DNA of 64,000 nt from Clostridia bacterium. GTDB lineage: Bacteria; Bacillota; Clostridia; Oscillospirales; Acutalibacteraceae. Below are positions 22,774 to 38,999 of the stretch, piece by piece. The first letter of the stretch is position 1. Each line of letters starts with the position of its first letter. A program made the translations under genes and the position numbers. The notes beneath the pieces are model-generated. The model was not told where the DNA came from. It worked only from the letters and a program-made list of their open reading frames with translations, and made no database searches. The stretch lies in contig JAFWYB010000052.1 in assembly GCA_017517865.1 (NCBI GenBank), positions 1 to 64,000 of the forward strand, written 5' to 3'.

Positions 22774-22858
22774 AAAACCTCTCCTCGTATTTTTAATATT
22801 AAGCAACAAATACACATAAATGCAGTGCAGTTATATGCCAAACTGCACTGCAAGTTAC

Positions 22859-22954: not shown

Positions 22955-23767
22955 TTAAACAATGAATTCTGTGACATTACAGAACAAATATGTAAACGGA
23001 GCTACAAAGAGCATACTGTCAAAACGGTCAAGCACACCGCCGTGACCGGGCAACAGCTTTCCGTAATCTTTTATACCGCATATTCTTTTGACTGAAGAAA
23101 ATGCCAAATCGCCGAACTGTCCGAGCACGGAAGCAGAAAGAAGATAGACAGCGAGTATGCCGTAATTTACAAAAATGATGTCGTTATCGGATAAAACCCG
23201 GGCTACTATCATCAGAATAGCAACTGCACATATTGTACCTCCGACACTGCCTTCAACTGTCTTCTTAGGGCTCAACACCGGAGCGAGCTTATGCTTGCCG
23301 AAGCCTTTGCCGCAAAGATAAGCAAAAATATCCGTAAGCACTGAAATAAGCATTGTAACGCCTAATAAATAAACTCCCTTTTCAGTATTTCTGATGCCTG
23401 AAAGCGATTTGAAAAAGAAGGTTATCATAAACGCAATAATCACTGACAACAGGGGCTCAACTTTGTCTTTAACTTTTATTTTTGCCATCAATATACCAAA
23501 AAGTATAATTGCTGCTGCAAACAAAACCGCAACTATATAGACATTGCCGGGTATTGCTTCAAAGGACAAGGCAATCGCAGCAGCGCAGGAAGCCGCTGTT
23601 ATTACTTTGTTTTTGTAAAGTCCCGTTGCCTTGTACAATTCATATATTCCCTTGACGGATAAAAAGGCGATAAGCGTATTAAGAACTGCGGGAATGTGAG
23701 AAAAATATACAATCGTACCCAAAATTACGGTCAGAACTGCACCGGTTAAAACTCTTGTCAGAAACAT
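22955..23767 (-). CDS. cdsA: Phosphatidate cytidylyltransferase, element-borne copy
   Basis: 270 residues, about eight membrane helices, with the CDP-alcohol synthase signature near the C-terminus: SSVKRICGIKDYGKLLPGHGG then VLDRFDS, with conserved Lys/Asp/His/Asp residues intact. It makes CDP-diacylglycerol from phosphatidic acid and CTP, the branch point to phosphatidylglycerol, cardiolipin and others. A housekeeping copy is expected elsewhere on the chromosome, so this is probably a second, regulated copy. Promoter with three TTGA repeats at 23804-23846. Confidence 0.93.
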   Translation of the reverse strand: MFLTRVLTGAVLTVILGTIVYFSHIPAVLNTLIAFLSVKGIYELYKATGLYKNKVITAASCAAAIALSFEAIPGNVYIVAVLFAAAIILFGILMAKIKVKDKVEPLLSVIIAFMITFFFKSLSGIRNTEKGVYLLGVTMLISVLTDIFAYLCGKGFGKHKLAPVLSPKKTVEGSVGGTICAVAILMIVARVLSDNDIIFVNYGILAVYLLSASVLGQFGDLAFSSVKRICGIKDYGKLLPGHGGVLDRFDSMLFVAPFTYLFCNVTEFIV

Positions 23768-23803: not shown

Positions 23804-23857
23804 AGAATAAAAGAAAAACTTCAACAAACATTCAACCTAACATCAATTTTTGTTGAA
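23804..23857 (-). promoter_or_regulatory. TTGA-repeat operator/promoter of the cdsA operon
   Basis: On the minus strand three TTGA units at 23843-23846, 23832-23835 and 23821-23824 (11-base period), 11 bases, then -10 TATTCT (23804-23809). TTGA at 23853-23856 completes the TCAA-N6-TTGA core that is also found at the other two sites. Confidence 0.8.
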
Positions 23858-23899
23858 AAAGCGGACATCAGACCTGTTCTGACATCCGCTTTTAGTTTT

Positions 23900-24946
23900 T
23901 CAGTTTTCATTAAGTATAACCGTAAATCGGCAGCCGCCGTCTTCTGTGTTTTCGGCAAGCACCTCGCCGCCGATAATGGTCACGATTCTCTTTACAAGGG
24001 CAAGTCCTAATCCGTTTCCTTCCTGCTTATGAGATGAGTCTGCCTGATAAAACTTATCAAACAGATGCTTTTTTGCTTCTTCAGATAAACCGGGACCGTC
24101 ATCTTCAACGGTAAATAAAATATTGTCCTGTTCTTTAGTAAGATTTATTTTCACAGTACCGCAATCAGGGCTGAATTTTACAGCGTTGCCTATTATGTTA
24201 GACCAGATATGATAAGTAAGAGCCTCCGAACCGTAGTATTCTGTTTCTTCAAGCTCAACATTGAGTTCAATATTTTTTTCTGTCCAGCTCTGTTCAAGTG
24301 CAACTATGGTTTCTCTTATCTGCTCATCAAGCCTGAATTTCACCCGGTTGGTCTGAATTGACTGATTCTCAATTTTTGAAAGCAAAAGAATGTTACTGAC
24401 AAGCGACGAAAGCCTTTTTGTGTTAAAAAGTATTTTTTCGATATATTCATTTTCAATCTCGTCTATATTGTCTGTGCTTTGCAGAAGGGTTGTGTAGCCC
24501 TCAATGGCATTTATGGGAGTTTTGAATTCGTGGGAAACATTTGAAACAAAATCCGTTTGCAGAATTTCCGTTGAGGCAAGCTCCTCAGTCATTATATTAA
24601 ATCCGGAAAAAATTTCCTGTATTTCCGCAGAAGTAGATTTTGTTTCGACTCTTGTGCTGAAATCTCCGTCTGCAACCTTTTGCATTGCTTCTCCGAGAGT
24701 TTTTATCGGCTCAAGAAAACGCTTCAGAATAAATCTTGTGGCAATCATTGCAATAATGAGACAAAAAATGTTCAGCTGTAAAAGGAGATGAAAATTAGAT
24801 GCCTGAGGATTAACAAGTCTTATAAGATTTACAATGCCGAAGGCTACAAGCACACTGGCAAAAACAACACAGCCGAGAATAATAGTGAGCCTCGTGTTAA
24901 GACTTACACGGGAAAGCCTAAAACTTCTGTTTTTCTCTTTTTTCAT
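23900..24946 (-). CDS. Sensor histidine kinase with short extracytoplasmic loop
   Basis: 348 residues: two membrane helices (about 20-43 and 53-72) joined by only about 10 residues, HAMP (about 73-125), phosphoacceptor H139 in SHEFKTP, and a GHKL ATPase domain with NAVKFSP (N box), DDGPGL (G1) and GNGLGLALVK (G2). With so small an outside loop it is of the intramembrane-sensing class, which often reads a signal through a partner membrane protein such as an ABC transporter. It overlaps the response-regulator gene by 4 bases and is autoregulated by the TTGA-repeat promoter at 25696. Confidence 0.92.
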   Translation of the reverse strand: MKKEKNRSFRLSRVSLNTRLTIILGCVVFASVLVAFGIVNLIRLVNPQASNFHLLLQLNIFCLIIAMIATRFILKRFLEPIKTLGEAMQKVADGDFSTRVETKSTSAEIQEIFSGFNIMTEELASTEILQTDFVSNVSHEFKTPINAIEGYTTLLQSTDNIDEIENEYIEKILFNTKRLSSLVSNILLLSKIENQSIQTNRVKFRLDEQIRETIVALEQSWTEKNIELNVELEETEYYGSEALTYHIWSNIIGNAVKFSPDCGTVKINLTKEQDNILFTVEDDGPGLSEEAKKHLFDKFYQADSSHKQEGNGLGLALVKRIVTIIGGEVLAENTEDGGCRFTVILNEN

Positions 24947-25614
24947 ATCTTACTCACCTTATACCCTACACCTCTGATCGTAACAATTTTAAAATCATTG
25001 TTATCCTTAAATCTGTCTCTGAGTCTTCCTATGTGAACATCTATAGTGTGGGTATCGCTTTCCGAATCATAGCCCCACACATCATCCATAAGCTGTTGAC
25101 GGGTGAATATCCGTCCCGGGTAGGATGCCATTTTATAAAGAAGCATAAACTCCTTCTGCGGAAGCGATACACTGCCGTCAAGGGAGTGTACGGTAAAGGT
25201 ATCACATTCGAGAACAGTATCGCCTATGGTTTGTCTTCTCTCATTTATCATCTGGGCACGGCGCAAAAGAGCCTGAACACGGATAACCATTTCATTGACA
25301 TTGACAGGCTTAATCATGTAATCATCCGAGCCCGACAGAAAGCCCAGACGCATATCGTCAAAGGCATCCTTCGCCGTTATCATCATAACAGGTGTATTGT
25401 TTCCGTATTCACGAAGGGTACGGACAAATTCATAGCCGTCCATATTCGGCATCATAACATCAGAAATTATTATATCAAAATAATCGTTTTCCATTGCGTC
25501 AAGAGCTTCCTTGCCGTCGGAAACCTCTTTAACAGCAAAGCCGTTTTTTATAAGCACATGAGCAAAAAGTCTTCTCAGCTCACGGTCATCTTCAGCAATA
25601 AGTATTTTAAACAT
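24943..25614 (-). CDS. OmpR/PhoB-type response regulator
   Basis: 223 residues: receiver domain with acidic pocket E8-D9-D10, phosphorylation site D52 (IIISDVMMPNMDG) and K102-type lysine (MMITAKDAF), then a winged-helix domain (about 128-222; FTRQQLMDDVWGY, DTHTIDVHIGRLRDRF). OmpR-type regulators bind tandem direct repeats with about 11-base spacing, exactly the arrangement of the TTGA repeats in front of this gene and four other cargo transcripts, so it is the prime candidate to bind them. Confidence 0.95.
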   Translation of the reverse strand: MFKILIAEDDRELRRLFAHVLIKNGFAVKEVSDGKEALDAMENDYFDIIISDVMMPNMDGYEFVRTLREYGNNTPVMMITAKDAFDDMRLGFLSGSDDYMIKPVNVNEMVIRVQALLRRAQMINERRQTIGDTVLECDTFTVHSLDGSVSLPQKEFMLLYKMASYPGRIFTRQQLMDDVWGYDSESDTHTIDVHIGRLRDRFKDNNDFKIVTIRGVGYKVSKI

Positions 25615-25695
25615 ATTTATCGCACCTCCTGAAGTATTCTCTTATTATTCTATATTTCTTAATCTAAAGTGTCAAGATTTCAGAGTTTACGGTTT

Positions 25696-25738
25696 ATAAT
25701 AACTTTAATTTTTCAACTGTTATTCAAGTAAAGTTCAA
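25696..25738 (-). promoter_or_regulatory. TTGA-repeat operator/promoter of the two-component system
   Basis: Minus strand: TTGA at 25735-25738, 25724-25727, 25713-25716 (11-base period), 11 bases, then -10 TATTAT (25696-25701). Back-to-back with the mntP operator. Confidence 0.8.
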
Positions 25739-25744
25739 CATCTG

Positions 25745-25787
25745 TTGAGAATAGATTGAAAAACAGTTGAATTTTGTCGTATATACT
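25745..25787 (+). promoter_or_regulatory. TTGA-repeat operator/promoter of mntP-lipid kinase unit
   Basis: TTGA at 25745, 25756 and 25767 (11-base period), 11 bases, -10 TATACT (25782-25787), 42 bases before the mntP start. Confidence 0.8.
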
Positions 25788-25829
25788 ATTTTTTAAAGTT
25801 TATCAAACAAAAAAACGGAGATAAAACAT

Positions 25830-26405
25830 ATGAATCTGGATTTTACATTTTTCTTTGACAGTATTATGCTCGGTGTGGGACTCGCGATGGATGCTTTTTC
25901 TGTATCTCTTGCAAACGGTCTTAATGAGCCGAAAATGAAAACAGGGAAAATGTGCGGTATTTCCGGTGTTTTTGCTCTCTTTCAGTTCGGAATGCCGATG
26001 ATAGGATGGATATGTGTTTCATCCTTTGCACAGCATTTTGCTTCTTTCGGGAAATTCATTCCGATTATTGCCTTTGTTCTTCTATCTTACATAGGAGGAA
26101 AGATGCTTTACGAAGGAATCAGAAACAAAAATGACAGCGAGGAAGGTGCTGTCGGTTTCAAAGCACTTCTTGTGCAAGGGGTTGCCACTTCTATCGATGC
26201 ACTTTCAGTAGGATTTACTGTTTCCGACTACAACTTACCCGAGGCTTTGCTTGCCTGTCTTCTTATCGGTGTTGTAACATTTTTTATCTGCCTTGCGGGA
26301 CTTTTTATAGGTAAGAAGGCAGGTACGAAGCTTGCGGGAAAAGCAGGTATTCTCGGTGGTGTAATTCTTATTTTTATCGGACTTAAAATTCTGATTACAG
26401 GATAA
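25830..26405 (+). CDS. mntP: MntP-like manganese efflux pump
   Basis: 191 residues, six helices. The two MntP repeats are clear: GVGLAMDAFSVSLANGL (about 13-29) and GVATSIDALSVGFTV (about 116-130), with the conserved membrane aspartates in AMDAF and SIDAL. It exports Mn(II) in characterised bacteria. In an envelope-lipid island it might adjust Mn available to phosphotransfer enzymes or the transported ion might differ; that is inference. CGGAG precedes the ATG. It is first in a two-gene unit with the lipid kinase. Confidence 0.88.
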   Translation: MNLDFTFFFDSIMLGVGLAMDAFSVSLANGLNEPKMKTGKMCGISGVFALFQFGMPMIGWICVSSFAQHFASFGKFIPIIAFVLLSYIGGKMLYEGIRNKNDSEEGAVGFKALLVQGVATSIDALSVGFTVSDYNLPEALLACLLIGVVTFFICLAGLFIGKKAGTKLAGKAGILGGVILIFIGLKILITG

Positions 26406-26439
26406 AATGATTAAATACATATTTTAAGAGGAGAAGCAA

Positions 26440-27318
26440 ATGAACTTTTATCACATACTTTATAACCCTTATGCAAGCGGCGGAGAAGGAGAAGAGAAAG
26501 CAAAGAAGCTTTCTGACTTGCTTGACCGTAACTATGTATCTTATTATGATATGACAAAAATTGAAGACCTGCAAGGGTATATAAACAGTCTTGACAAGGA
26601 CGAAAGCATTGTCATTTGCGGTGGTGACGGTACACTGAACCGTTTTATAAACAGCGTTGACACAGATAAAACAGAAAATGAAATTTATTGCTACTGTACG
26701 GGAAGCGGCAACGACTTTCTGCGTGATATCCATGCCGAAGACAGTACCATGCCTGTACGGATAACAAAATATCTTAAAAATCTCCCTGAGGTTACTGTTA
26801 AAGGTAAAACCTATAAATTCCTCAATAATGCTTCTTTCGGTCTTGACGGCTACTGCTGTGAAGAAGCTGACAGACAAAGGCAGGAAAAAGGCAAATCATC
26901 AAACTATGCACTTCTTGCCATAAAAGGTCTTTTGTACGCGTATAAGCCACGAAACGCAACTATTATAGTTGACGGTGTTAAAAAGGAGTATAAAAACACA
27001 TGGCTTGCCCCTACAATGAACGGAAGATTTTTCGGCGGAGGACTTATGTCAGCGCCGGGTCAGGACAGACTGAATGAAAAGCATACCGTTTCGGTAGTTG
27101 CTATGTATAATGTGAGCAAGATAAGAGCTTTGTGTATTTTGCCGTCGATGTTCAAGGGTAAGCATATTAAACATACTGATATTATTGATGTCAGCGAAGG
27201 ACACGAAATAACGGTTATATACGACAGACCTGCTCCAATGCAGATTGACGGTGAAACAATACCTGATGTTATAAGGTGCGATGTCAAAGCCCGTTCAGCA
27301 GTAAACTGCGAAGTTTAA
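26440..27318 (+). CDS. Diacylglycerol kinase-type lipid kinase (DgkB/YegS family)
   Basis: 292 residues: the N-terminal DAGK catalytic domain with NPYASGGEGEEKA, the nucleotide-binding GGDGTLNRFIN (residues about 66-76) and GSGNDFLRD, then a beta-sandwich lipid-facing domain with GGGLMSAPGQD and a conserved DGE near the end (IDGETI). Such soluble enzymes phosphorylate diacylglycerol to phosphatidic acid, the substrate of the CdsA in the same island, although sphingoid and other lipid substrates exist. AGAGGAG lies before the ATG. Confidence 0.9.
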   Translation: MNFYHILYNPYASGGEGEEKAKKLSDLLDRNYVSYYDMTKIEDLQGYINSLDKDESIVICGGDGTLNRFINSVDTDKTENEIYCYCTGSGNDFLRDIHAEDSTMPVRITKYLKNLPEVTVKGKTYKFLNNASFGLDGYCCEEADRQRQEKGKSSNYALLAIKGLLYAYKPRNATIIVDGVKKEYKNTWLAPTMNGRFFGGGLMSAPGQDRLNEKHTVSVVAMYNVSKIRALCILPSMFKGKHIKHTDIIDVSEGHEITVIYDRPAPMQIDGETIPDVIRCDVKARSAVNCEV

Positions 27319-27332
27319 CTGTTGACTATATA

Positions 27333-27370
27333 TAAAAAGGAGTTCCAAATTTAACGGAACTCCTTAATTT
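27333..27370. terminator. Bidirectional terminator between lipid kinase and ABC exporter genes
   Basis: 10-bp stem AAGGAGTTCC/GGAACTCCTT with A-rich and T-rich flanks, serving the convergent genes. Confidence 0.8.
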
Positions 27371-27372
27371 AT

Positions 27373-30111
27373 TTATTCTGTTCTGAGTGCTTCCACCGGG
27401 TCCTTCTTTGCCGCGAGCTTTGAGGGTACAAGGCCTGCAATAAAGGTCAGGAATACGCTTATACAGATAAGTATAATCGCTGCATTAAAGGGAAGCTGAG
27501 CCGCCGCACCTGTGTTTGTCAGATGATTAAGCAGCAGATTTATCGGTATTTCAAGCAGCAGCGTACACAGAATACCGAGAACACCTGAGGTCAGTCCTAT
27601 GGAAACGGTTTCCGCATTGAAGACTCTTGAAATGTCGCTCTTTGAAGCACCAATTGAACGCAGAATACCGATTTCCTTGGTTCTTTCAAGCACAGAAATG
27701 TAAGTGATAATTCCTATCATGACCGATGAAACCACAAGGGAAACAGCAACAAAAACGATAAGCACATAAGTAACAATATCAATAATCTTTGTCACCGAGG
27801 AAAGCAGTGCACCTATGGGGTCTGTAAGGCTGATTGAATGCTCGGGATGACCCATTGATGTCACTTTATCGTTATAAAATGAAATCATACTGTTGAGCTC
27901 ATCCTTAGCCTCAAAGCTTTTCGGATAAAAGTAAATCGAGGTAGGAATAGCGGCAGACTGATAGCCTAAGGTTTCCATTGTTTTGTCGTAGGAGCATTGG
28001 GCGTTTATTGTGTCGATATATGCCTGCTTGAGTGCGATAATCTGTTCATCACTGAGATAACCCTCCATCAGCTTTTTCTGAAGATTTGACATTTCTCCGA
28101 AGCTGAATACCGAAGACATATCCGTAATATCAATTTCCGCAAGGTCAATATTCTCAACCATATCCATAAAAGGCGTTATGTCAAGGTAGCTCATATCAAT
28201 AAGACTCATATCAATATCGGCAAGGTCAAAATCATTGATGCCGAGATTCATAAATTCAAGCCCGGAAATTACATCCTTGTCGGGTGAACCGAGCTGCTCC
28301 TGCACTACCTGAGATTTTTCTGTCTGCTCGAGGGCATAGTCCATAAGAGTTGACATATAGCCTACACCGCCTGTGCCGACGGAAAGAACATTGTCCTTCT
28401 TTGGACGGAGAATACCGACAATTTCTATTTCAAGACCCTTATCAACCAGCTCTTTTACATAAGCGGTGTTGGCACTCATATCCTTCCAAAGGCCTGTCTT
28501 TTTATCCTTTTTCATATAGTCGGAATTGAGCACGAGCTTAAATCTCATATCGCAGATTTCCTCAAAGGTGTACACATCCTCGGCAGTCTGAAGCTCTTCG
28601 GAATTTTTAATGGCATCCATAAGGTTTTTGGAAAGCTCCTTTTGGTCCTTTATGCCGAGAGCATAGAGTACAAGCTCGTTGATTTCATTGTTGCCGTCCA
28701 CCATAAGCACAACCTCGTGCTTTTCTACGGGGAGTCTGCCATGAATAATGTCGTACTGCTTTGAAATAACCTCTGTGTCACCGATAAGCTCTACCCATGA
28801 ATCCATCATTGACGAGGACATAAAGCCCTCCATTCCGGCCATCATACTGCTTGACATTTCTGCCATCGCCGTATTGGGATTAACCCTGACAACACCATCT
28901 GATGTATCAGCTTTATAAATATTAAGAGGTGTAGAATATTTGAACTGAATGTCGTTACAAAGAGTGTCAAATTCTGCTCTGTTATCTTCGATATACTTTT
29001 TAAAGCTTTCAATATTATTGGAGGAGGACTGAGCGACGAAGGTGTTTATCATCTGTGTAAACATATCATTTACATAAACCTTATCCTCCTCGTTGTCACT
29101 ATTGATCATTTCCTCGCTCATACCCATCATAGCATTCATCATATTATCAGTATTTACCGACTCACGTTCAACGCTCATAGGATAAGCCATTAGTGTATCG
29201 TTCTGCACCTTGTCAACATAATTCTGAATACCTGTTGAAAGAGCGAGAACAAGTGCGATACCGATAATACCTATTGAGCCTGCAAAGGCAGTAAGAAAGG
29301 TTCTGCCTCTTTTTGTTCCGAGGTTACGAATACTCAGACCGAAAGCCGTACCGAGGCTCATCGAGGGCTTTTTGCCCTTTTTCCTTTCTTCACGGGCTTT
29401 GACCTTTTCTGTCTGTCGGTCTTCTTCCCCAGGATTAAAGGGGTTACTGTCATCTACTACCTTGCCGTCGCTTACCTTTATGATTCTGTTTGAATATTCA
29501 TAGGCAAGTTCAGGATTATGGGTAACCATAATTATGAGCTTATCCTTGCTTATTTCCTTCAGAAGCTCCATAATCTGCACACTTGTTTCGCTGTCAAGAG
29601 CACCTGTAGGCTCGTCGGCAAGAATAATATCGGGATTATTGATAAGAGCTCTTGCCACGGCAACTCTCTGCATCTGTCCGCCTGACATCTGATTAGGCTT
29701 TTTATCAATATGGTCACCTAAGCCAACCTTCTTTAAAGCTTCTATGGCTCTTTCTTTTCTTTCCTTTTTACTTACACCGGAAAGAGTAAGAGCAAGCTCA
29801 ACATTAGCTAAAACCGTCTGATGAGGTATAAGGTTATAGCTTTGGAAAATAAAGCCGACAGAGTGGTTTCTGTAGGTGTCCCAGTTTTCATCGGTAAAGG
29901 TTTCTGTGCTTTTTCCGTTAATTACGAGGTCACCGCTTGTATATCTGTCAAGGCCGCCGATTATATTCAGCATTGTTGTCTTGCCGCAGCCCGAGGGGCC
30001 GAGAATTGAAACGAATTCACTTTCCCTGAAATTTATGCTCACATCGTTGAGCGCTCTTACGGTCGTATCGCCTGCAACATAGTCTTTTATAATATTTTTT
30101 AGTATAAGCAT
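27373..30111 (-). CDS. ABC exporter, MacB/FtsX type (ATPase fused to permease)
   Basis: 912 residues. The ATPase domain (about 1-225) has Walker A GPSGCGKTT, signature MSGGQMQRVAVARAL and Walker B ILADEPTGALD; then a membrane helix (about 270-292), a very large extracytoplasmic region (about 295-785), and three C-terminal helices (about 790-905) with the FtsX motif RTKEIGILRSIGASKSDI. MacB-type proteins do mechanical work on periplasmic or surface partners rather than classical transport. It is the last gene of the four-gene minus operon and starts 3 bases after the 866-residue surface protein, a likely partner. Confidence 0.92.
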   Translation of the reverse strand: MLILKNIIKDYVAGDTTVRALNDVSINFRESEFVSILGPSGCGKTTMLNIIGGLDRYTSGDLVINGKSTETFTDENWDTYRNHSVGFIFQSYNLIPHQTVLANVELALTLSGVSKKERKERAIEALKKVGLGDHIDKKPNQMSGGQMQRVAVARALINNPDIILADEPTGALDSETSVQIMELLKEISKDKLIIMVTHNPELAYEYSNRIIKVSDGKVVDDSNPFNPGEEDRQTEKVKAREERKKGKKPSMSLGTAFGLSIRNLGTKRGRTFLTAFAGSIGIIGIALVLALSTGIQNYVDKVQNDTLMAYPMSVERESVNTDNMMNAMMGMSEEMINSDNEEDKVYVNDMFTQMINTFVAQSSSNNIESFKKYIEDNRAEFDTLCNDIQFKYSTPLNIYKADTSDGVVRVNPNTAMAEMSSSMMAGMEGFMSSSMMDSWVELIGDTEVISKQYDIIHGRLPVEKHEVVLMVDGNNEINELVLYALGIKDQKELSKNLMDAIKNSEELQTAEDVYTFEEICDMRFKLVLNSDYMKKDKKTGLWKDMSANTAYVKELVDKGLEIEIVGILRPKKDNVLSVGTGGVGYMSTLMDYALEQTEKSQVVQEQLGSPDKDVISGLEFMNLGINDFDLADIDMSLIDMSYLDITPFMDMVENIDLAEIDITDMSSVFSFGEMSNLQKKLMEGYLSDEQIIALKQAYIDTINAQCSYDKTMETLGYQSAAIPTSIYFYPKSFEAKDELNSMISFYNDKVTSMGHPEHSISLTDPIGALLSSVTKIIDIVTYVLIVFVAVSLVVSSVMIGIITYISVLERTKEIGILRSIGASKSDISRVFNAETVSIGLTSGVLGILCTLLLEIPINLLLNHLTNTGAAAQLPFNAAIILICISVFLTFIAGLVPSKLAAKKDPVEALRTE

Positions 30112-30114
30112 AGG

Positions 30115-32715
30115 TCACACCTGCTGAAAATCCTTTTCTTCTTCTGTTTCAAAATCATCTTCGTAGGGAAGGTCGGCTTTCTTCCGTTTCTTTATCACAA
30201 GGATAACCGCCACAGCTATGACGATAGCAGCGATTATAATAACGGGAGTCTTTGTTTCCTTTTCTTCGGGCTCGTAAATTACAGTAGGAAGAAATTTTTC
30301 CGTTACCTTTTCTTCGACAACAGGTCTTTCTCTGAAAAAGAGCTTATATAGCCATTCCACAGTTTCATCTGTTGTCATATTCTGAAGTTCTTCTCCCATA
30401 CCGCCTGAAAACTGTGTCATCATACTGTCATCGCCGCTTCCCATAAGTCCGAGCATCATATCTCCGCCTTCGGGAGATTTCATTATTTCTGCAATAAAAC
30501 GAAGAAGAGTAACTGCTATGGCAGGCTGGTCTGCTTTTACATAAGAAATCTGCACCGGCTGACCGTTCAGTGTTCTTTTGCTCTGCACAGTTGTAAGCTG
30601 TCCCATTAAAGCAAACTGCTTAATATCAAGACTTGAAACATCAATTCCCAAATCAGTATCACCGAGCATACCCGAAAGCATTTCATTTATATTCATTTCA
30701 CCTGTAACGGCAGACATATCAACTATGCTTTCCATACCGAGCTCTTTAAGCATTGATGTAAGAGGATAAAGAAGATTACTTATCGCCGCATTCATACCGC
30801 CGCTTTCCGTAAACCAAAGAAGATTAGGAAGAATTTCCATAATTGTATATCCCGGCTTGTCGAGTACTCTTTCGATAAGAGCTACAACAGAGTCGGTAAT
30901 AGCTTTTATTCCTTCTCCCTTTGACACGGCCGATTTATATTCATCGTAGGTTTTAATGCTTTCGGCACTGCAGCCGAGTGCTTCAAGTATTGGGATAACT
31001 GCCGTGTTATAGCCGTTACTGCCGTAAATATCTATACTGCCGAGAACGGTTATTTTTCCTTCGGCAAGAAGCAGATTGAGTATAGGCTCAAAGGGTGAAA
31101 GCACATCACAAAGGGCATTTACAAAGCCTTTTCTGTTGCCGTCCTTAAAGCCCCAGTTAATACTGCTGACATTACTCCACTTTGCAGTACGGTAAAGAGT
31201 ATATCTTGCCGCAGAATAAGAGCTGCCTTTAAGATTGTTTGCAACACCGTAGGTTGTGACATTTATACCGAGCAATTCGCAAAGCATTTTCATTTCTTCG
31301 TTCTCAAAAACACCGTATATGCCCTTGGCAAGCTCCGTTACAAGTGCATTTGAATAAATCTGCGGTTCAAGTGCTTCTCTTGTATTTTTATATTTTCCGC
31401 CTTCAAGGATAAATTCATTTATAAGGTCGTCAATGCCGTCAACCACTCTCTGATACTTGTCTGCACCGAGGTTGGGTGTGTACTTTACTGATGTGGGAGT
31501 ATATTCAGGAAATGTCCACGAATATTCAAGCGGCTTTGACGAGGATTGTGTGAGAATGGAAACGATGACTTTGATGATTTCATCAGTGCTTTTCGCCATA
31601 AGAGAATCAACAGCCTTTATCATTTCAGCAGGCATTTTACTGCCTGAAAGGCTGTCTTTATTGAGCTTAAGAGTATCAATAAGCCACCTTAAAATAACAA
31701 GTAAGGCATCGGCTTTATCGGCAGTAAAGCTGTCACCCGAAGCAGTACCGCAGGAAGCAAGCTCTTCAAGGTTGATTTCTGCCATCTTAAGCCCCGTTCC
31801 CGAAAGGATATCATTAAGATTGAGGGTAAGAGACTGTGTATACTGCTCACTGTTCTGAATAAAAGAGAGTATAGTTTCTATCTTTATAAAGGTTCTGATA
31901 TTGAAAATCTGAAGCCTTAAGGGCTCAATAAGCTTTGAAACAGCCCTGTCGAAGCCGCCGTTTGTCATAAAATATGCCACAGACGGCAGAATCTCTGTCA
32001 GCTTATCACAGGGTGCGTCAAGAGCCTTTTCGACCATTGTCAACACATCTGAAGCAATATTTTCCACCATTGAGTTTTTGTTCTTTTCTGCATCCTTATA
32101 AAACTCGTCGCTTCCGGTTATCTTTTCACAGCCGAGAGCCTTCAGCGTGGGAATTATTGCATTCTCATAACCAAAATCACCGTCGATACCGATAACCTTG
32201 CTGAGAGGATAATTGCCGTCACAAAGCAGAGTGTATAAAAGCTCATTAAAGGGCGCACAAATGCACCCCAAAGCCTTTGTGAAGCTATTTTTACCTGTAA
32301 CGCCCCAGCTTACATCTTCAAGATTCACTTCGCTCCATTTTTGATGGGAAGCAAGCTCCTTTTGCACCTTCGGATAATTGCCGAGGCACTCTGCCACATC
32401 GGCAGTTGTAGCCTTAAGCCCTGCCGAGGATAAGCTCTCTGCATTTTCCTCAATCATTGAATAAATTCCCGCCGTGAGCGCCGAAAGAGTTTTATCCGAA
32501 TATATTTCGGGCAAAACAAGCTCACCGAGACTCTTGTCCCCGGTGCTTTCCAAAAGTGAACCTATTGCAGTATCAAGCTTCGGTATAATTTCCTGCATTT
32601 GCTCCTTGGTAACGCCCTCAGGATAGCTTTGCACCGCAGAAGCGGCAGGAGCCATAGTGAAAATGACGATAAGCACGGTTAAAAGAAGCGAAACCGTGCT
32701 TCTGATTTTTTTCAT
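30115..32715 (-). CDS. Surface protein with two internal repeats and C-terminal membrane anchor
   Basis: 866 residues: signal peptide (1-27, ending APAASA), a large outside part and a C-terminal helix (about 823-844) with a basic-acidic tail. Two related blocks of about 300 residues are visible, about 45-350 and 425-746, matched by EIYSDKTLSALTAGIY / QIYSNALVTELAKGIY, KWSEV..WG / KWSNV..WG, IIPTLKALGC / VIPILEALGC, and DILSGTGL / EMLSGMLG, offset by about 385. No known domain recognised. Operon position next to the ABC exporter suggests a substrate or accessory protein. Confidence 0.75.
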   Translation of the reverse strand: MKKIRSTVSLLLTVLIVIFTMAPAASAVQSYPEGVTKEQMQEIIPKLDTAIGSLLESTGDKSLGELVLPEIYSDKTLSALTAGIYSMIEENAESLSSAGLKATTADVAECLGNYPKVQKELASHQKWSEVNLEDVSWGVTGKNSFTKALGCICAPFNELLYTLLCDGNYPLSKVIGIDGDFGYENAIIPTLKALGCEKITGSDEFYKDAEKNKNSMVENIASDVLTMVEKALDAPCDKLTEILPSVAYFMTNGGFDRAVSKLIEPLRLQIFNIRTFIKIETILSFIQNSEQYTQSLTLNLNDILSGTGLKMAEINLEELASCGTASGDSFTADKADALLVILRWLIDTLKLNKDSLSGSKMPAEMIKAVDSLMAKSTDEIIKVIVSILTQSSSKPLEYSWTFPEYTPTSVKYTPNLGADKYQRVVDGIDDLINEFILEGGKYKNTREALEPQIYSNALVTELAKGIYGVFENEEMKMLCELLGINVTTYGVANNLKGSSYSAARYTLYRTAKWSNVSSINWGFKDGNRKGFVNALCDVLSPFEPILNLLLAEGKITVLGSIDIYGSNGYNTAVIPILEALGCSAESIKTYDEYKSAVSKGEGIKAITDSVVALIERVLDKPGYTIMEILPNLLWFTESGGMNAAISNLLYPLTSMLKELGMESIVDMSAVTGEMNINEMLSGMLGDTDLGIDVSSLDIKQFALMGQLTTVQSKRTLNGQPVQISYVKADQPAIAVTLLRFIAEIMKSPEGGDMMLGLMGSGDDSMMTQFSGGMGEELQNMTTDETVEWLYKLFFRERPVVEEKVTEKFLPTVIYEPEEKETKTPVIIIAAIVIAVAVILVIKKRKKADLPYEDDFETEEEKDFQQV

Positions 32716-32736
32716 TCCATCACCTCATTTTTTTAT

Positions 32737-33972
32737 TTAATAGCTTTCTTTACCCATAAGATATCTGTGTGCAACCACATATTTAATTGCTGAACGGGGA
32801 GATTTGCTGTGTATTTCATAATATGCTTTATCCGTTACAATAAGAAGATTCATCTTTGCGGCTATGCTTATCTTTTTTATATTCTCTAAAGGAACGCTGT
32901 CAACCGAGTTTTCAGTAGTAATTTCTATTCTGTCACCGTAAAGCGAAACATTGCCTTTCTCACTCTGAAGCACTCTGTTTTCATTTTCAAGGGTATAAAC
33001 TATTTGCTCTGAGTCACCGAAAAGAAGTTCATCGGTGCCTTTCTTTTTATCGGCAAGCTCTTTGAGTACACCTTTCTGAAACTTATCCCAACGGACAATG
33101 TCATCAAACCACATATCCTCACTATGCCAGAAACCATAATTATCAACACTTGCTTCAAAGCCACATTCGCAGAAAATCTTATCGTTTTTACTTGTAAGCG
33201 TACCGATTTGCTTACACTTCGGGCAGGCATAAAGGATTATTTCAGCACTTTCGGCAGGGTTATCAGCTGAATATATCTGCGGATTGATTTTCTGTTCATC
33301 ATATATATTAAAGTTTAAATCTTCTTTAATAATATTATAAATTTCGTCAACGCTCATTTTTTTGAGTTCATCTCTTGAATAAACTCTTACGACCTCACCA
33401 CTTATTTTTCCGCTTCGTTTATTTTCTGCCCAACGGGGAGCCTTGAGATAACCGCCTTTGTTTCTGAATGTGACAAGAGCGCAGTTGCCGTCCTTTACCA
33501 TCTGTGCATTACGCTTTGATATGTAGCCTGTTTCACCATTGTTGGTTTTGCCGCCCTCAATATGCATACACACATTAACACCTGCATTAAGATTATCCAC
33601 AACCTCATTATAAAGGGAATCGGAGCCTTTTTCACGGTGATAAATAATAGGTGTTGCAAGGAAATTAAGAAGTACTCGCATAATTGGCTTTCTTGTCAGG
33701 TGGTCACTCATAACAAAGCGCATAAAGTTTCTTATACCCGCAAGCTCTGCGGCAGCATCAAAGTTATGAGCGTGATTAGCCATAAGAATAAAGGGTTCTT
33801 CTTTTATTCTTACCTTGTCACACTCTATATCGCATATTTTCTTGAATGGCGGACCTATGATATTTCTTGCCGCAAAAATGATAAACTGTGAGCGTCTGTA
33901 ACCCTTGCGGATTTGTTTTCTCTTTTTATATTCATTCATCTTTTCTTCCAATTCGTAAGCAAGCTCTAACAT
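32737..33972 (-). CDS. PlsC-like acyltransferase with zinc ribbon and C-terminal beta domain
   Basis: 411 residues. The acyltransferase core (about 25-200) has the catalytic NHAHNFD (N-H-x4-D) and, where PlsC has FPEGTRS, a variant IEGGKTNNGET. No membrane helix is obvious. A Cys4 zinc ribbon follows (CPKCKQIG...FCECGF, about 245-272), then a beta-rich end. Members transfer acyl chains to lysophosphatidic acid or related lipids; the variant second motif makes the acceptor uncertain. GGAGGA precedes the ATG. Between the patatin and surface-protein genes (gaps 11 and 21 bases). Confidence 0.8.
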   Translation of the reverse strand: MLELAYELEEKMNEYKKRKQIRKGYRRSQFIIFAARNIIGPPFKKICDIECDKVRIKEEPFILMANHAHNFDAAAELAGIRNFMRFVMSDHLTRKPIMRVLLNFLATPIIYHREKGSDSLYNEVVDNLNAGVNVCMHIEGGKTNNGETGYISKRNAQMVKDGNCALVTFRNKGGYLKAPRWAENKRSGKISGEVVRVYSRDELKKMSVDEIYNIIKEDLNFNIYDEQKINPQIYSADNPAESAEIILYACPKCKQIGTLTSKNDKIFCECGFEASVDNYGFWHSEDMWFDDIVRWDKFQKGVLKELADKKKGTDELLFGDSEQIVYTLENENRVLQSEKGNVSLYGDRIEITTENSVDSVPLENIKKISIAAKMNLLIVTDKAYYEIHSKSPRSAIKYVVAHRYLMGKESY

Positions 33973-33983
33973 TTTGTCCTCCG

Positions 33984-34901
33984 TTATTTTTCAAGATATT
34001 TTTTTAATTCATCAAAGCTTCTTTTTGCATCCTCAACACCTAAAAAATAAAGCTCTCCCAGCTTTTCCATATCAGGCTCAAGTCTTCCCACTATTACAGG
34101 CTGTGAAGGACTCATAACAAAAACTTTGCCCTCGTCACGGAGCTTGTCAAGTCTGTCGCACTGTTCATTGTAATTCACATCGTTATAGGGAAGAACCTTT
34201 GCAAATTCGGGATAATCTTTATATATAAAATTTGCTAATTTTATCTGTTCCGTCTTTACTTCATCGGGCTTACGGAAGGTATCCTCTCTTGTTTTTATAA
34301 CGATTATTTTTTCATAGCCTTCCTTTATCGCCCAATCAAAAGGTATTTTACAGACACAGCCACCGTCAAGACAGGGAGTGCCGTCAACAAGAACAGGCTT
34401 TGAAACCAAGGGGAGACTTGCCGAAGCTCTTATTGCTTGCAGAAAATCAGAACACTCATCGCGGTCAATATATTCCTCTTTACCTGTCAGAAGATTGGTT
34501 ACAACGGCAACGATACGCTTTCTTTCATCATACATTCTTTCTCTGTCAAGAGGTTCAATTTTTTCAAGCTCGTTATAAAGAAAATCAAAGCCGATTATAC
34601 CGTCATTTTTCCTTATTGCCCTTAAGCCTACATAATCGCTGTTGTGACGGAAACGCAGATTTGTACGGGCACTTCTGCCGATCTGTCCCGAAACATAATT
34701 TGCCGCATTTATTGCACCTGCCGACACACCGACAGTACAGCTCATATTTATGCCTTGAGTCATCAGATAATCAAGAACGCCTTCGGTATATACACCTCTG
34801 AATGCACCGCCCTCGAGCACCATGCACCCCTCAATTACATTGTCCGGAGCTGTGCCGCTTAATATGTTATCTATTCCCGAATATACCTTGTTTTTCATCA
34901 T
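33984..34901 (-). CDS. Patatin-like phospholipase (RssA type), element-borne
   Basis: 305 residues with the oxyanion glycine loop LEGGAFRGVYTEGVLDYL (about 29-46), nucleophile GVSAG (about 58-62) and the catalytic aspartate in LDGGCVCKIPFDWAI. Cytoplasmic acyl hydrolase, likely to remove acyl chains from phospholipids. Together with the acyltransferase beside it this gives a deacylation-reacylation pair. First gene of the four-gene minus operon; ATG at 34901 or 34898. A related patatin is at 47131 on the chromosome. Confidence 0.88.
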   Translation of the reverse strand: MMKNKVYSGIDNILSGTAPDNVIEGCMVLEGGAFRGVYTEGVLDYLMTQGINMSCTVGVSAGAINAANYVSGQIGRSARTNLRFRHNSDYVGLRAIRKNDGIIGFDFLYNELEKIEPLDRERMYDERKRIVAVVTNLLTGKEEYIDRDECSDFLQAIRASASLPLVSKPVLVDGTPCLDGGCVCKIPFDWAIKEGYEKIIVIKTREDTFRKPDEVKTEQIKLANFIYKDYPEFAKVLPYNDVNYNEQCDRLDKLRDEGKVFVMSPSQPVIVGRLEPDMEKLGELYFLGVEDAKRSFDELKKYLEK

Positions 34902-34937
34902 ATTTATCCTTTCACATATTTTTGGTTTTACTTACCG

Positions 34938-34980
34938 ATATTAGAGTATTATTTTCAACGGTTCCTCAACCTAAAATCAA
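34938..34980 (-). promoter_or_regulatory. TTGA-repeat operator/promoter of the patatin-ABC operon
   Basis: Minus strand: TTGA at 34977-34980, 34966-34969, 34955-34958 (11-base period), 11 bases, -10 TAATAT (34938-34943). Confidence 0.8.
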
Positions 34981-34986
34981 TTTTCG

Positions 34987-35029
34987 TTGATATTCAGTTG
35001 AATATGAATTGAAACAGCAGCTGTAAAAT
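34987..35029 (+). promoter_or_regulatory. TTGA-repeat operator/promoter of the radical-SAM operon
   Basis: TTGA at 34987, 34998 and 35009, 11 bases, -10 TAAAAT (35024-35029), 32 bases before the gene start. Confidence 0.8.
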
Positions 35030-35061
35030 AAAACCATCATAAAAAAGAAAGGACGAAAAAT

Positions 35062-36426
35062 ATGATTAACTCTTTATCCCACTCACTTCAGCGAAAAGCT
35101 GTCGGAGCTCTTGTTGATATGGCAATGAGCAAAATAGGTGGAAACCGTGAAGAGGCTCTTCTTAAAACGGTGGATATGGCAGAGCAGTTCTGGAACGGTG
35201 ATTACCCGAAAGAAAAGTTTGATAATGTCAGAGCAGAAATTAATAAGCCTGACAGCAAATGGATGAATATTGTCAATTATCTTCTGGATGAAATCAATCC
35301 GAATGTAGCAAAGACAACCATTCTCAACCTCGGATATGAAGCGTTTCTGAGAGGCACGAAAACCATAAGGAAGAACAGAGAAATTCACGGCTGCAACATT
35401 CCATGGCTTATTCTGTTTGACCCCACTTCCGCTTGCAATATGCAGTGTGCCGGCTGCTGGGCAGGTACATACGGAAACAAGCATAATTTAAGCTTTGAGG
35501 ATATGGATAAAATCGTTACCGAGGGTAAGGAGCTCGGCACATATCTCTACCTTCTTACAGGCGGTGAGCCTTTGGTGAGAAAGGACGACATTCTCCGCCT
35601 CGCCGAAAAGCACAACGATGTTCAGTTTGCCGTTTTCACTAACTCGACACTAATTGATGAGGATTTTTGCAAAAGAGTTACCGCGGTCGGAAACATAGCT
35701 TTCCTTATTTCTATCGAAGGCTCACACGATACTAACGATGCAAGAAGAGGCTTCGGTCACTATAATGTAGTTATGAGTGCTATGGAGCTTATGAAAAAGC
35801 ACGGCATTATTTTCGGCACATCAATCTGCTACACAAGAGAAAATGTTGAGGCAGTTACAAGTGACAACTTTTTAAGGATGCTTTCAAAAATGGGAGCAAA
35901 ATTCGGCTTTTACTTCCACTATATGCCCGTCGGTAACAAAGCAGTTCCCGAGCTTATGCCCACAGCCGAGCAGAGAAAATATATGATTGAACGCATAAGA
36001 TACATAAGAAGCAAGGACTGTGACATTCCCTTCTTCCCCATGGACTTCCAGAATGACGGCGAATTTACCGGTGGCTGTATTGCAGGCGGCAGAAACTACT
36101 TTCATATAAATTCAGCAGGTGATGCAGAGCCTTGTGTATTTATCCACTATTCTGATTCAAACATCCATAATTCTTCGATTCTTGAGATACTGAAAAGCCC
36201 CTTGTTTATGGCATATCGCAAAAATCAACCCTTTAACAGCAATCATCTCAGACCTTGCCCTATGCTTGAAAATCCCGAACGCTTAGAAAAGATAATCGCT
36301 GAAACAGGCGCAGGAAGCACAGATTTGGAGTCACCGGAAGCAGTCGAACACCTGTGCGGTAAGTGTAAGGCTTATGCAGAAAAGTGGACTCCTTACGCTG
36401 AAGAAATATGGGATGAAACCCACTGA
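35062..36426 (+). CDS. Radical SAM/SPASM-like enzyme linked to phospholipid synthesis
   Basis: 454 residues. A helical N-terminal extension (about 1-110) precedes the AdoMet [4Fe-4S] motif C125-x3-C129-x2-C132 (ACNMQCAGCW) and LTGGEPLVR. The C-terminal part has conserved cysteines (GGCIAGG, EPCVFIH, RPCPM, HLCGKC) typical of SPASM/twitch auxiliary clusters. The product is unknown. The gene is directly followed by a PgsA-like enzyme and sits in a lipid regulon, so a lipid, rather than a peptide, may be the substrate (inference); no precursor peptide is seen nearby. AAAGGA site before the ATG. Confidence 0.8.
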   Translation: MINSLSHSLQRKAVGALVDMAMSKIGGNREEALLKTVDMAEQFWNGDYPKEKFDNVRAEINKPDSKWMNIVNYLLDEINPNVAKTTILNLGYEAFLRGTKTIRKNREIHGCNIPWLILFDPTSACNMQCAGCWAGTYGNKHNLSFEDMDKIVTEGKELGTYLYLLTGGEPLVRKDDILRLAEKHNDVQFAVFTNSTLIDEDFCKRVTAVGNIAFLISIEGSHDTNDARRGFGHYNVVMSAMELMKKHGIIFGTSICYTRENVEAVTSDNFLRMLSKMGAKFGFYFHYMPVGNKAVPELMPTAEQRKYMIERIRYIRSKDCDIPFFPMDFQNDGEFTGGCIAGGRNYFHINSAGDAEPCVFIHYSDSNIHNSSILEILKSPLFMAYRKNQPFNSNHLRPCPMLENPERLEKIIAETGAGSTDLESPEAVEHLCGKCKAYAEKWTPYAEEIWDETH

Positions 36427-36453: not shown

Positions 36454-37098
36454 ATGAAAGAAAAACTGTCATTTTATTTTAAAAACTGGAAAACCGTACC
36501 TAATCTTATATCCTTTATAAGAATACTGCTCATTCCTGTTTTTGCTGTTTTGTTTTATAACGGTCAGACTATTGCTGCAGCTGTTATTCTTGCTTTGTCG
36601 GGTCTGTCTGACCTTGTTGACGGCAAGATAGCAAGAAAGTATAATCAGGTCAGTGAGCTCGGCAAAATTCTCGATCCCGTCGCCGATAAGCTTACGGTCT
36701 TTGCAATAGCAATAATACTTTATCTCAAATTCAGTAAGGCTCTGAATCCGACACTGAATGCATTTTCATGGGTGTTTCTCCTTTTCATAATCAAGGATTT
36801 TGTAATGATATTCTTTGCCTTCATTATGATTCTTCTCGGTCTTCGTCCCTGTGCTGCAGAAATTTTCGGCAAGGTTGCAACAACGGCATTTTATGTTGTA
36901 ATGGTTATAATTATGGCAATCGGTCCCGAGGTAGGAGCTTTTAGAAATTTCTTCTGCTTACCCGACAGTGTGATGATGGTTCTTGTTTCAATAGCCGCTA
37001 TACTGACTTTCGTTGCATTTTTCAGTTATCTGCCTGATGTTTTCAGACAGTTCGGCTCTCTTAAAAAGAAAAAAGCAGGAGGAGAACACAATGACTAA
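36454..37098 (+). CDS. CDP-alcohol phosphatidyltransferase (PgsA-like), element-borne
   Basis: 214 residues, about five helices, with the complete CDP-alcohol signature D-x2-D-G-x2-A-R-x8-G-x3-D-x3-D (DLVDGKIARKYNQVSELG then KILDPVAD). It joins a CDP-lipid (made by CdsA) to an alcohol; similarity is to glycerol-3-phosphate phosphatidyltransferases, but the acceptor cannot be proven from sequence. It starts 27 bases after the radical SAM gene and overlaps the DUF308 gene by 8 bases. Confidence 0.88.
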   Translation: MKEKLSFYFKNWKTVPNLISFIRILLIPVFAVLFYNGQTIAAAVILALSGLSDLVDGKIARKYNQVSELGKILDPVADKLTVFAIAIILYLKFSKALNPTLNAFSWVFLLFIIKDFVMIFFAFIMILLGLRPCAAEIFGKVATTAFYVVMVIIMAIGPEVGAFRNFFCLPDSVMMVLVSIAAILTFVAFFSYLPDVFRQFGSLKKKKAGGEHND

Positions 37099-37669
37099 TA
37101 TAAAAGCCACAAAAAACAGCACCCTTATGAGTGCCGTAGAGTTTATTATAGGTATTATCCTTTTATTCAGACCCGAAGGCTTTACATCAGTTATTATTGT
37201 TTCTTTGGGAGTTGTTTTAATCGTACTCGGAGCAATGAGCACAGTGAATTATTTCCGTACCGAAAAGAGTGAAGCGATGAAGACTAACCTGCTGTCAAAA
37301 GGCTTGCTTTGTCTTATCGGTGGTATATTCTTTGCTTTCAACTCAAAGTGGTTCATAAAGACATTTCCGATTTCAACAGTCCTGTACGGAGTGTTTATGC
37401 TCCTTTTAGGAGTTGTTAAATTCCAGAACACAATCGATTTCTTCAGATTTAAAGTGAAGTACTGGTACATAAATCTTATCGGCGCTGTTCTGACTCTTTT
37501 CTCTTCGGTTATGATTATCACAAACCCGTTTACTTCGACGGAGTTCGTTTGGAAATATATCGCGATAGCTCTGCTCGTTGAGGCTGCACTTGATATACTG
37601 TCATATCTTTTGTCAAACAAGGAGACTGACACACCTGTAAATGCCGATACGGTAATTACAACAGAATAA
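37091..37669 (+). CDS. DUF308 (HdeD-like) membrane protein
   Basis: 192 residues with about six helices in pairs, as in DUF308 proteins such as HdeD: EFIIGIILLFRPEGFTSVIIVSLGVVLIVLGAM and the repeat-like SVMIITNPFTS. HdeD is linked to acid resistance in E. coli; the role in Firmicutes is unknown. The AGGAG site lies inside the end of the pgsA-like gene, indicating translational coupling. Third and last gene of the radical-SAM unit; a terminator follows. Confidence 0.82.
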   Translation: MTNIKATKNSTLMSAVEFIIGIILLFRPEGFTSVIIVSLGVVLIVLGAMSTVNYFRTEKSEAMKTNLLSKGLLCLIGGIFFAFNSKWFIKTFPISTVLYGVFMLLLGVVKFQNTIDFFRFKVKYWYINLIGAVLTLFSSVMIITNPFTSTEFVWKYIAIALLVEAALDILSYLLSNKETDTPVNADTVITTE

Positions 37670-38633: not shown

Positions 38634-38999
38634 TCATACATATATTATTTCCGCACAAACTATTTCTCTCGCTCGTTGCTGAATATTACCCATTCTCTTC
38701 ACCCATTCAAGTTGGTCTTGTTCTTTCAACTCTTCTGTAACATCTTCACTTTGTTTCATCTGTTCAACAAGAGCATCAAACATATCTCGTGCCTGATTTT
38801 CTATTTCGGCACAGTGCTGATAAAGTTTGCCTTGCATAAGCAGTGTGCTAAATAGCACTTTCTTGTGCTTTTCAAGATAGGTCTTGTGTAACATTCCCCA
38901 TTTGCCTAGGGTGATGTTTGCTTCTTCAGGTGGGATAATAAGGTTGGGGATGAGATAATCACCAACACGGCGGTAACAGATAGAATTTTTGTTTGACAT
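38634..38999 (-). CDS. tnpV: TnpV family transposon protein
   Basis: 121 residues of the TnpV family found in Tn4451-like mobilizable elements (YRRVGDYLIPNL, LGKWGMLHKTYLEKHKKVLFSTLLMQGKLYQHCAEIE). All-helical; function unknown but always element-borne, so it marks the right part of the element. A GGAGG ribosome site lies just upstream of the ATG. Confidence 0.88.
   Translation of the reverse strand: MSNKNSICYRRVGDYLIPNLIIPPEEANITLGKWGMLHKTYLEKHKKVLFSTLLMQGKLYQHCAEIENQARDMFDALVEQMKQSEDVTEELKEQDQLEWVKRMGNIQQRAREIVCAEIIYV

Follow-up and report, generated by a model that had tools for sequence, protein, structure and literature searches.

A recurrent four-half-site operator points to membrane-lipid control by an adjacent OmpR/PhoB-type regulator in gut Clostridia

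Why should five promoters in one small gene cluster carry the same rigidly spaced repeat? The question arises in a stretch of 64,000 nucleotides from an uncultured gut bacterium of the Clostridia, family Acutalibacteraceae (GenBank GCA_017517865.1, contig JAFWYB010000052.1, positions 1 to 64,000), hereafter the window, where genes for lipid enzymes and transporters surround a response regulator (RR) and its histidine kinase (HK). An original prediction had noted three TTGA units before each promoter and assigned them to this regulator. In our view these five sites very probably serve the adjacent OmpR/PhoB-type RR as operators, through which it would activate its own transcript and a local membrane-lipid regulon; binding and activation are predicted here from sequence comparison. 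Read directly from the DNA are the anatomy of the sites, their closed set in the genome, co-inheritance of the box with one clade of the RR, the conserved geometry and the types of target gene. Inherited with the RR and often lying before lipid genes, the box points to what may be an undescribed circuit controlling membrane make-up.

Five sites in the window and its genome

The operator-promoter of cdsA (23804–23856, minus strand) reads TCAA-N6-TTGA-N7-TTGA-N7-TTGA-N11-TATTCT. The sites of the RR-HK operon (25696–25748, minus; -10 TATTAT) and of mntP and the lipid kinase gene (25735–25787, plus; -10 TATACT) have the centre 25735–25748 in common, as those of the patatin operon (34938–34990, minus; -10 TAATAT) and the radical-SAM operon (34977–35029, plus; -10 TAAAAT) have the centre 34977–34990. 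Direct reading of the window thus placed all five arrays at the positions and on the strands originally proposed, each with a period of 11 and 11 nt to its -10, and with TCAA-N6-TTGA central in all three intergenic regions. The description as three direct repeats was accurate as far as it went and incomplete, since a fourth, inverted half-site (TCAA) belongs to the operator. Only the -10 of the RR appears in a list of sigma-70-like promoters, with a weak -35-like ATAACA at 16 nt; the other four have no fitting -35.

A scan of the whole genome had been suggested as a check. In the source assembly (2,687,150 bases, 70 contigs) the exact TTGA-N7-TTGA-N7-TTGA occurs five times, always at these promoters, and the reversed triple repeat not at all, so that the 2.69-Mb assembly holds no exact site beyond the five. 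A fuller pattern (TCAA, two TTGA, TTG and a -10, with at most three mismatches) gave 17 matches against three for its reversed control. The five sites match it without mismatch, none matches with one, one with two and eleven with three, one of these eleven being the RR site in a shifted register. The original prediction was to be given up if the pattern proved equally common at unrelated promoters; instead its exact sites are unique in the genome, and the box tracks the RR across genomes.

Box and regulator in relatives

The candidate reader of the box is encoded at 24943–25614 on the minus strand. Its Response_reg and Trans_reg_C domains (PF00072, E 3.3e-27; PF00486, E 5.3e-23) place it in the OmpR/PhoB type, and Asp52, within ISDVMMP of the translation, is the predicted phospho-acceptor, kept in at least 90% of the box-bearing rows. 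No named RR equivalog (MtrA, PhoB, YycF, VanR, CseB etc.) was reached, the best 25 of 95 NCBIfam families all falling below cut-off; the best match, MtrA, scored 185 bits against a cut-off of 300.

Loci of relatives were collected by their RR alone. Of 584 relatives the best 80 were retained, 1.32 Mb in total, and were split at 67.5% RR identity into 65 loci at or above this value and 15 below. These 80 loci hold 48 exact boxes and one match to the reversed pattern. A box matrix, trained on the same loci that it scans, gave 100 matches at 14 bits or more, six of which proved to be stronger matches in a shifted register and were removed; matches fell in 55 of the 65 closer loci and in one of the 15 others. 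The reversed matrix found nothing in the 80 loci, nor did the forward matrix in nine loci lacking the RR. When the matrix was built from 16 close loci and applied to those held out, 36 of the 49 other loci gave 47 matches at 16 bits, with one match in the 15 loci below 67.5% and none to the reversed matrix.

Whole genomes were compared at three levels. Among 398 genomes of the family, from 135 genera, nine carry an RR of at least 72% identity, the next best reaching 54%. Eight of these nine have the strict box pattern, as do three of the 389 others (Fisher p about 1e-13); the reversed pattern also occurs in three genomes. The three without a close RR (G053, G180 and G342) have one match each, and the G342 site resembles a true box; its genus-mate G208 has the RR. 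In a class sample of 391 genomes, the fuller pattern occurs in four of the five with an RR of at least 74% and in none of the 386 others, four of which have an RR of 59–64% (p about 5e-9; reversed control 0). Of 34 genomes of the genus, the source genome and G013 carry the pattern with its -10, each with five sites in equal layout, and the remaining 32 do not. At the cdsA site the spacers diverge between these two genomes while the repeats, the N11 distance and TATTCT are unchanged.

In a tree of 79 of the 80 RRs (one from a box locus being too short), all 55 box-bearing rows fall in one clade of 67 with support 100/97, and none among the 12 on the other side. A chance origin of the boxes is excluded, mainly by these tests of co-inheritance. 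Positions 189 and 196 of the RR, which we take from PhoB to lie in the presumed recognition helix, are H and G in 49 of 56 box loci. Among the 14 boxless loci below 67.5%, R is paired with N or K in nine and V with N in two; the three others have H with N, E with G and H with G, respectively.

What, then, is the full form of the operator? In the aligned exact boxes, the inverted TCAA precedes the first TTGA by 6 nt and is 96–100% conserved per base, an independent result because TCAA was absent from that search pattern; of the inner bases of TCAAC-N4-GTTGA, C is kept at 83% and G at 72%. Among 92 distinct matrix sites, TCAA is exact in 85, the first TTGA in 90, the second in 80 and the third in 54, the third unit being most often replaced by TTGC (14), TTGT (11) or TTTA (6). 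TCAA stands at its expected place in 59 of 66 single promoters and in all 28 divergent matrix sites. Another TCAA 11 bp further out was found in one of the 66, and further inverted units in 23 of the 28. Since TCAA is kept at single promoters, it is not merely part of a neighbour's array. The 14 divergent pairs have a common centre with an offset of exactly 7, apart from one weak exception at another offset in L057; both partners reach at least 38 bits in 12 pairs, and one partner is weak in L060 and L066. A single promoter is therefore served by one inverted and three direct half-sites, and a divergent pair by three and three about a common centre.

The spacing is equally strict. At offset 11 from the last repeat the mean match to a -10 reaches its maximum, 4.55 of 6, against 3.06 for the next best offset. 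Within 350 nt upstream of the RR, a triple TTGA with period 11 occurs in 18 of 65 loci, and at any other period from 6 to 17 in none. Direct repeats of 11-bp period at 10–11 nt from the -10 match the PhoB/CiaR-type layout, which suggests activation, and a core of inverted half-sites with a 4-bp spacer matches the AgrR/CopR type in operator layout.

An open reading frame follows 92 of the 94 boxes, its start lying a median of 39.5 nt beyond the -10. The first genes are most often the RR (24), CDP-alcohol phosphatidyltransferase (11), CrtO-type acyltransferase (6) and PlsY (5), followed by radical SAM, diacylglycerol kinase and CmpB (4 each), patatin, CdsA and DegV (3 each), then by smaller counts. 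A family that we class as lipid-related is among the first four genes behind 64 of the 92 boxes, in 46 of 56 loci, in counts confined to the boxed operons. The RR itself is among the first four genes in 30 of the 56 box-bearing loci, which fits autoregulation. When ten representatives were compared with Pfam, MGDG_synth, G3P_acyltransf, CmpB, DegV, CrtO, PLDc, Acyltransferase and GNAT matched above cut-off, and the matches of the PAP2 and DUF2238 representatives lay below it. P-type ATPase, FtsH, AMP-ligase, GT8-VTT and some acyltransferases were labelled by eye.

A proposed circuit and its alternatives

Intramembrane-sensing kinases have two membrane segments, a very short outer loop and no sensor domain. 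The HK (23900–24946, minus; HAMP-HisKA-HATPase) and its relatives have this layout, from which sensing itself is predicted. By a crude hydropathy count, two hydrophobic segments precede the H-box in 60 of 61 kinases beside RRs of at least 67.5%, four of the 65 loci having yielded no kinase. The 17-aa segment cores are a median of 16 aa apart (2–27).

In the circuit that we propose, the kinase, with its two membrane segments and short outer loop, would sense a change in or at the membrane and phosphorylate the RR. RR protomers would fill the inverted pair TCAAC-N4-GTTGA and then continue head-to-tail toward the promoter on two more TTGA units in direct orientation, each 11 bp on from the previous one; 11 nt separate the end of the last unit from a -10 whose -35 is poor or absent. 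The array would take the place of the -35 and bring in RNA polymerase, as in class II activation. Where genes diverge, two arrays would form on one inverted centre, a six-half-site element that may fire in both directions. The output would be the kinase-regulator pair together with local enzymes of membrane-lipid synthesis and remodelling and envelope transporters. Binding, its stoichiometry, activation and the signal are what we infer, and the site geometry is our reason for preferring activation to repression.

It is nonetheless conceivable that the RR binds the boxes but represses, its last half-site between -35 and -10 blocking polymerase until the signal relieves it. The third half-site does lie inside the promoter, the RR's own promoter has its weak -35-like hexamer, and autoregulated operators are often repressed. 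We think this improbable, however, since the 11-nt distance to the -10 is fixed, four of the five window -10s lack a fitting -35, and CiaR sites of nearly the same layout activate (PMC3091779). A regulator encoded elsewhere might instead read the box, the link to the RR being one of shared location only. The box-RR link does come from comparison of sequences, and three family genomes carry a match without a close RR, that of G342 resembling a true box. Yet the reversed pattern is found in just as many genomes, the box follows the RR across the family sample, boxes end where the RR clade ends, and R with N or K prevails at positions 189 and 196 in the boxless loci below 67.5% where box loci have H with G, all of which makes such a regulator very unlikely.

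The purpose of the circuit leaves more room. It is possible, though we lean away from it, that the system defends against envelope-active antibiotics or peptides and that the lipid genes are its defence output. Short-loop kinases, a MacB-like ABC transporter, a phospholipase and cardiolipin-synthase-type genes would suit such a role, and LiaFSR (PMC13123819) and EdsRS (PMC7157781) couple drug damage to membrane lipids. But the ABC-FtsX family is inconstant, being among the first four genes in two of 56 box loci, and it was not found in L046, a locus that has the RR, kinase, boxes and several lipid genes. Finally, the boxes could be recent functionless copies of one intergenic segment, and the patatin/radical-SAM region of the window does share a 25-bp stretch, at 92% identity, with the cdsA region of L036 and L046. 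This we find scarcely credible, as half-sites, spacing and -10 are kept despite RRs differing by up to about 30% and despite different target genes.

Several results weigh against the observation itself or against our preferred reading, in which the adjacent RR activates a lipid regulon through these boxes. Within the window, the plain triple repeat with two mismatches occurs 15 times against a mean of 12.6 in shuffles, 32 of 100 of which reach 15, so only the exact form is distinctive there; exact genome-wide counts and co-inheritance were used instead for this reason. Ten of the 65 loci with an RR of at least 67.5% are boxless, including loci of 19–20 kb (L071, L079, L105 and L106), some others being short contigs. 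The RR is present without the strict pattern in one of nine family genomes (G226) and one of five class genomes (G699), and the box is patchy inside the RR clade, its label needing 10 changes over the whole tree (shuffled mean 20.8). H and G also occur in eight of ten boxless loci above 67.5% (nine boxless loci overall), so residues 189 and 196 alone do not explain the missing boxes. The weak divergent partners score 15.6 and 22.4 bits, one of them has no open reading frame, and a palindromic centre helps to raise such scores; the RR's own -10, moreover, does have its -35-like hexamer. The genome sets share species, so that the p-values overstate independence, and genomes and loci are partly the same or close (the boxes of G121 and L056 are identical), which leaves the tests not fully independent. 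The control on the lipid association is weak, the five window-type lipid families lying near 25 of the 65 closer RRs and one of the 15 others. The lipid labels derive from clusters, some of which were named by eye, and operon chains were called mechanically and may run into a neighbour's boxed operon, with some genes counted twice.

How does an operator of this kind compare with known ones? The pho box bound by PhoB of E. coli consists of 11-bp direct repeats that replace the -35, under a phosphate signal; the window operator is like it in these repeats and their place, and unlike it in that the pho box is not known to have an inverted unit and answers to phosphate. CiaR of Streptococcus is another regulator of the OmpR/PhoB type. 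Its search pattern, TTTAAG-N5-TTTAAG with an 11-bp period and a distance of 10 to the -10, likewise places direct repeats just before the -10, but its consensus (PMC3091779) has two direct units of another sequence and no inverted unit, and serves 15 scattered S. pneumoniae promoters rather than one linked lipid cluster. Operators of AgrR of Cupriavidus metallidurans and of the CopR/PcoR type have inverted half-sites with a 4-bp spacer, joined at some operators by in-phase direct half-sites, and AgrR is likely a type II activator with positive autoregulation (PMC7380067). The direct repeats there are imperfect and limited to some operators, whereas two further direct units stand at most sites here; the AgrR/CopR unit is TGTAAT/ATTACA against our TTGA, and the window core is shorter than the 6-4-6 of AgrR. 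LiaFSR/SapRS of Enterococcus (PMC13123819) and EdsRS of Bacillus anthracis (PMC7157781) are two-component systems that likewise control membrane lipids, a likeness in role. Among OmpR/PhoB regulators, binding to direct repeats is the usual case and few are known to use inverted ones (PMC3960148).

The constant arrangement of three direct half-sites behind an inverted one, its sharing at divergent promoters, the regulator and the regulon all seem new. Among top-ranked results of the open-licence literature we recognised none on this operator or regulator, an absence that is not proof. To our knowledge, the control of phospholipid synthesis in gut Clostridia has been little studied, and a sharp operator tied to cytidylyltransferase, phosphatidyltransferase, lipid kinase, acyltransferase, MGDG-synthase-like and phospholipase genes offers a direct handle on it. 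Wherever the RR is encoded, the box can be used to predict which genes are controlled, and because two named Blautia strains (L058 and L062) have this RR, the system is testable in culture. The operator is also well suited to asking how a protein of the OmpR/PhoB type might join inverted with tandem binding. It is tempting to go further and see here a hitherto undescribed, self-contained lipid module of gut Clostridia, its kinase of intramembrane-sensing layout, its RR binding as an oriented array of four protomers, or six where divergent, its lipid genes swapped between lineages, probably with some horizontal exchange; on this wider picture we find ourselves evenly divided.

Window genes and transcript limits

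By gene order, the boxed transcripts are five. Beside the RR-HK pair stands cdsA, for a CdsA-like phosphatidate cytidylyltransferase (22955–23767, minus; CTP_transf_1). An MntP-like pump (25830–26405, plus) is followed by a diacylglycerol/lipid kinase (26440–27318, plus; DAGK_cat and YegS_C). The patatin operon, on the minus strand, holds a patatin-like phospholipase (33984–34901), an acyltransferase domain protein (32737–33972; PF01553), an 866-aa protein (30115–32715) and an ABC ATPase with an FtsX-type permease part (27373–30111; best solved relative MacB). The 866-aa translation has hydrophobic segments near both ends and no Pfam family at E 0.001. On the plus strand, a radical SAM/SPASM protein (35062–36426; weak matches only, to solved proteins and NCBIfam) precedes a CDP-alcohol phosphatidyltransferase (36454–37098; nearest NCBIfam ClsA and PgsA, both below cut-off) and a DUF308 membrane protein (37013–37669). 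The first listed start of the last overlaps the previous reading frame, so its true start is probably later.

The original claim that the regulon covers the whole cargo holds for these five transcripts and fails to reach the AI-2E and BrkB genes, which lack a box of their own by either the exact or the fuller pattern in the whole assembly. They are probably outside the regulon because a terminator-like stem, a perfect 12-bp inverted repeat at 22821–22852, separates cdsA from the AI-2E gene. Another such stem lies behind the patatin operon (27337–27365). Terminator-like matches number 30 in this stretch against 14.5 in shuffles, and a single match is weak evidence.

The radical SAM/SPASM gene directly precedes the phosphatidyltransferase gene, and its relatives of known function are weak. 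A tetraether-synthase-like role found no support: there were five solved matches, the best to SkfB (7e-7), and the best 25 of 55 NCBIfam families were all below cut-off. The protein is possibly a lipid-modifying enzyme. The 866-aa gene adjoins the 912-aa ABC-FtsX gene, a related pair lies on contig C60 of G000, and parts match stretches of reading frames of 2,000 to over 9,000 aa. Similar pairs occur in loci of relatives where neither RR nor box was found, and relatives of the 866-aa protein were therefore left unused as markers of the system.

In L046, whose RR is 100% identical, boxes, kinase and several lipid genes are present; the MntP, ABC and 866-aa genes were not found there. Instead, the boxed operon with the RR begins with the gene for a GT8-VTT-type protein, a label given by eye. 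Neighbours thus change while the box stays. At 8304/8311 of that locus, a divergent box pair is flanked by a GT8-VTT-type protein and a lipid kinase, a case of swapped cargo.

Identity along the cluster is uneven. Positions 34902–35061 are 98–99% identical to L046 and to G013 (L036), and 25615–25829 are 99% identical to L036. Compared with L036, nearby genes stand at 81% (HK), 86% (radical SAM) and 89% (patatin), but mntP at 98% and the RR at 96%. Such a mosaic may reflect recombination or unusual conservation. For L069, protein identity to the window is 97% for the RR against 70% for the HK and 78% for the radical SAM protein, the regulator being far more conserved than its partners. A TnpV-type transposon protein is encoded next to the cluster, at 38634–38999.

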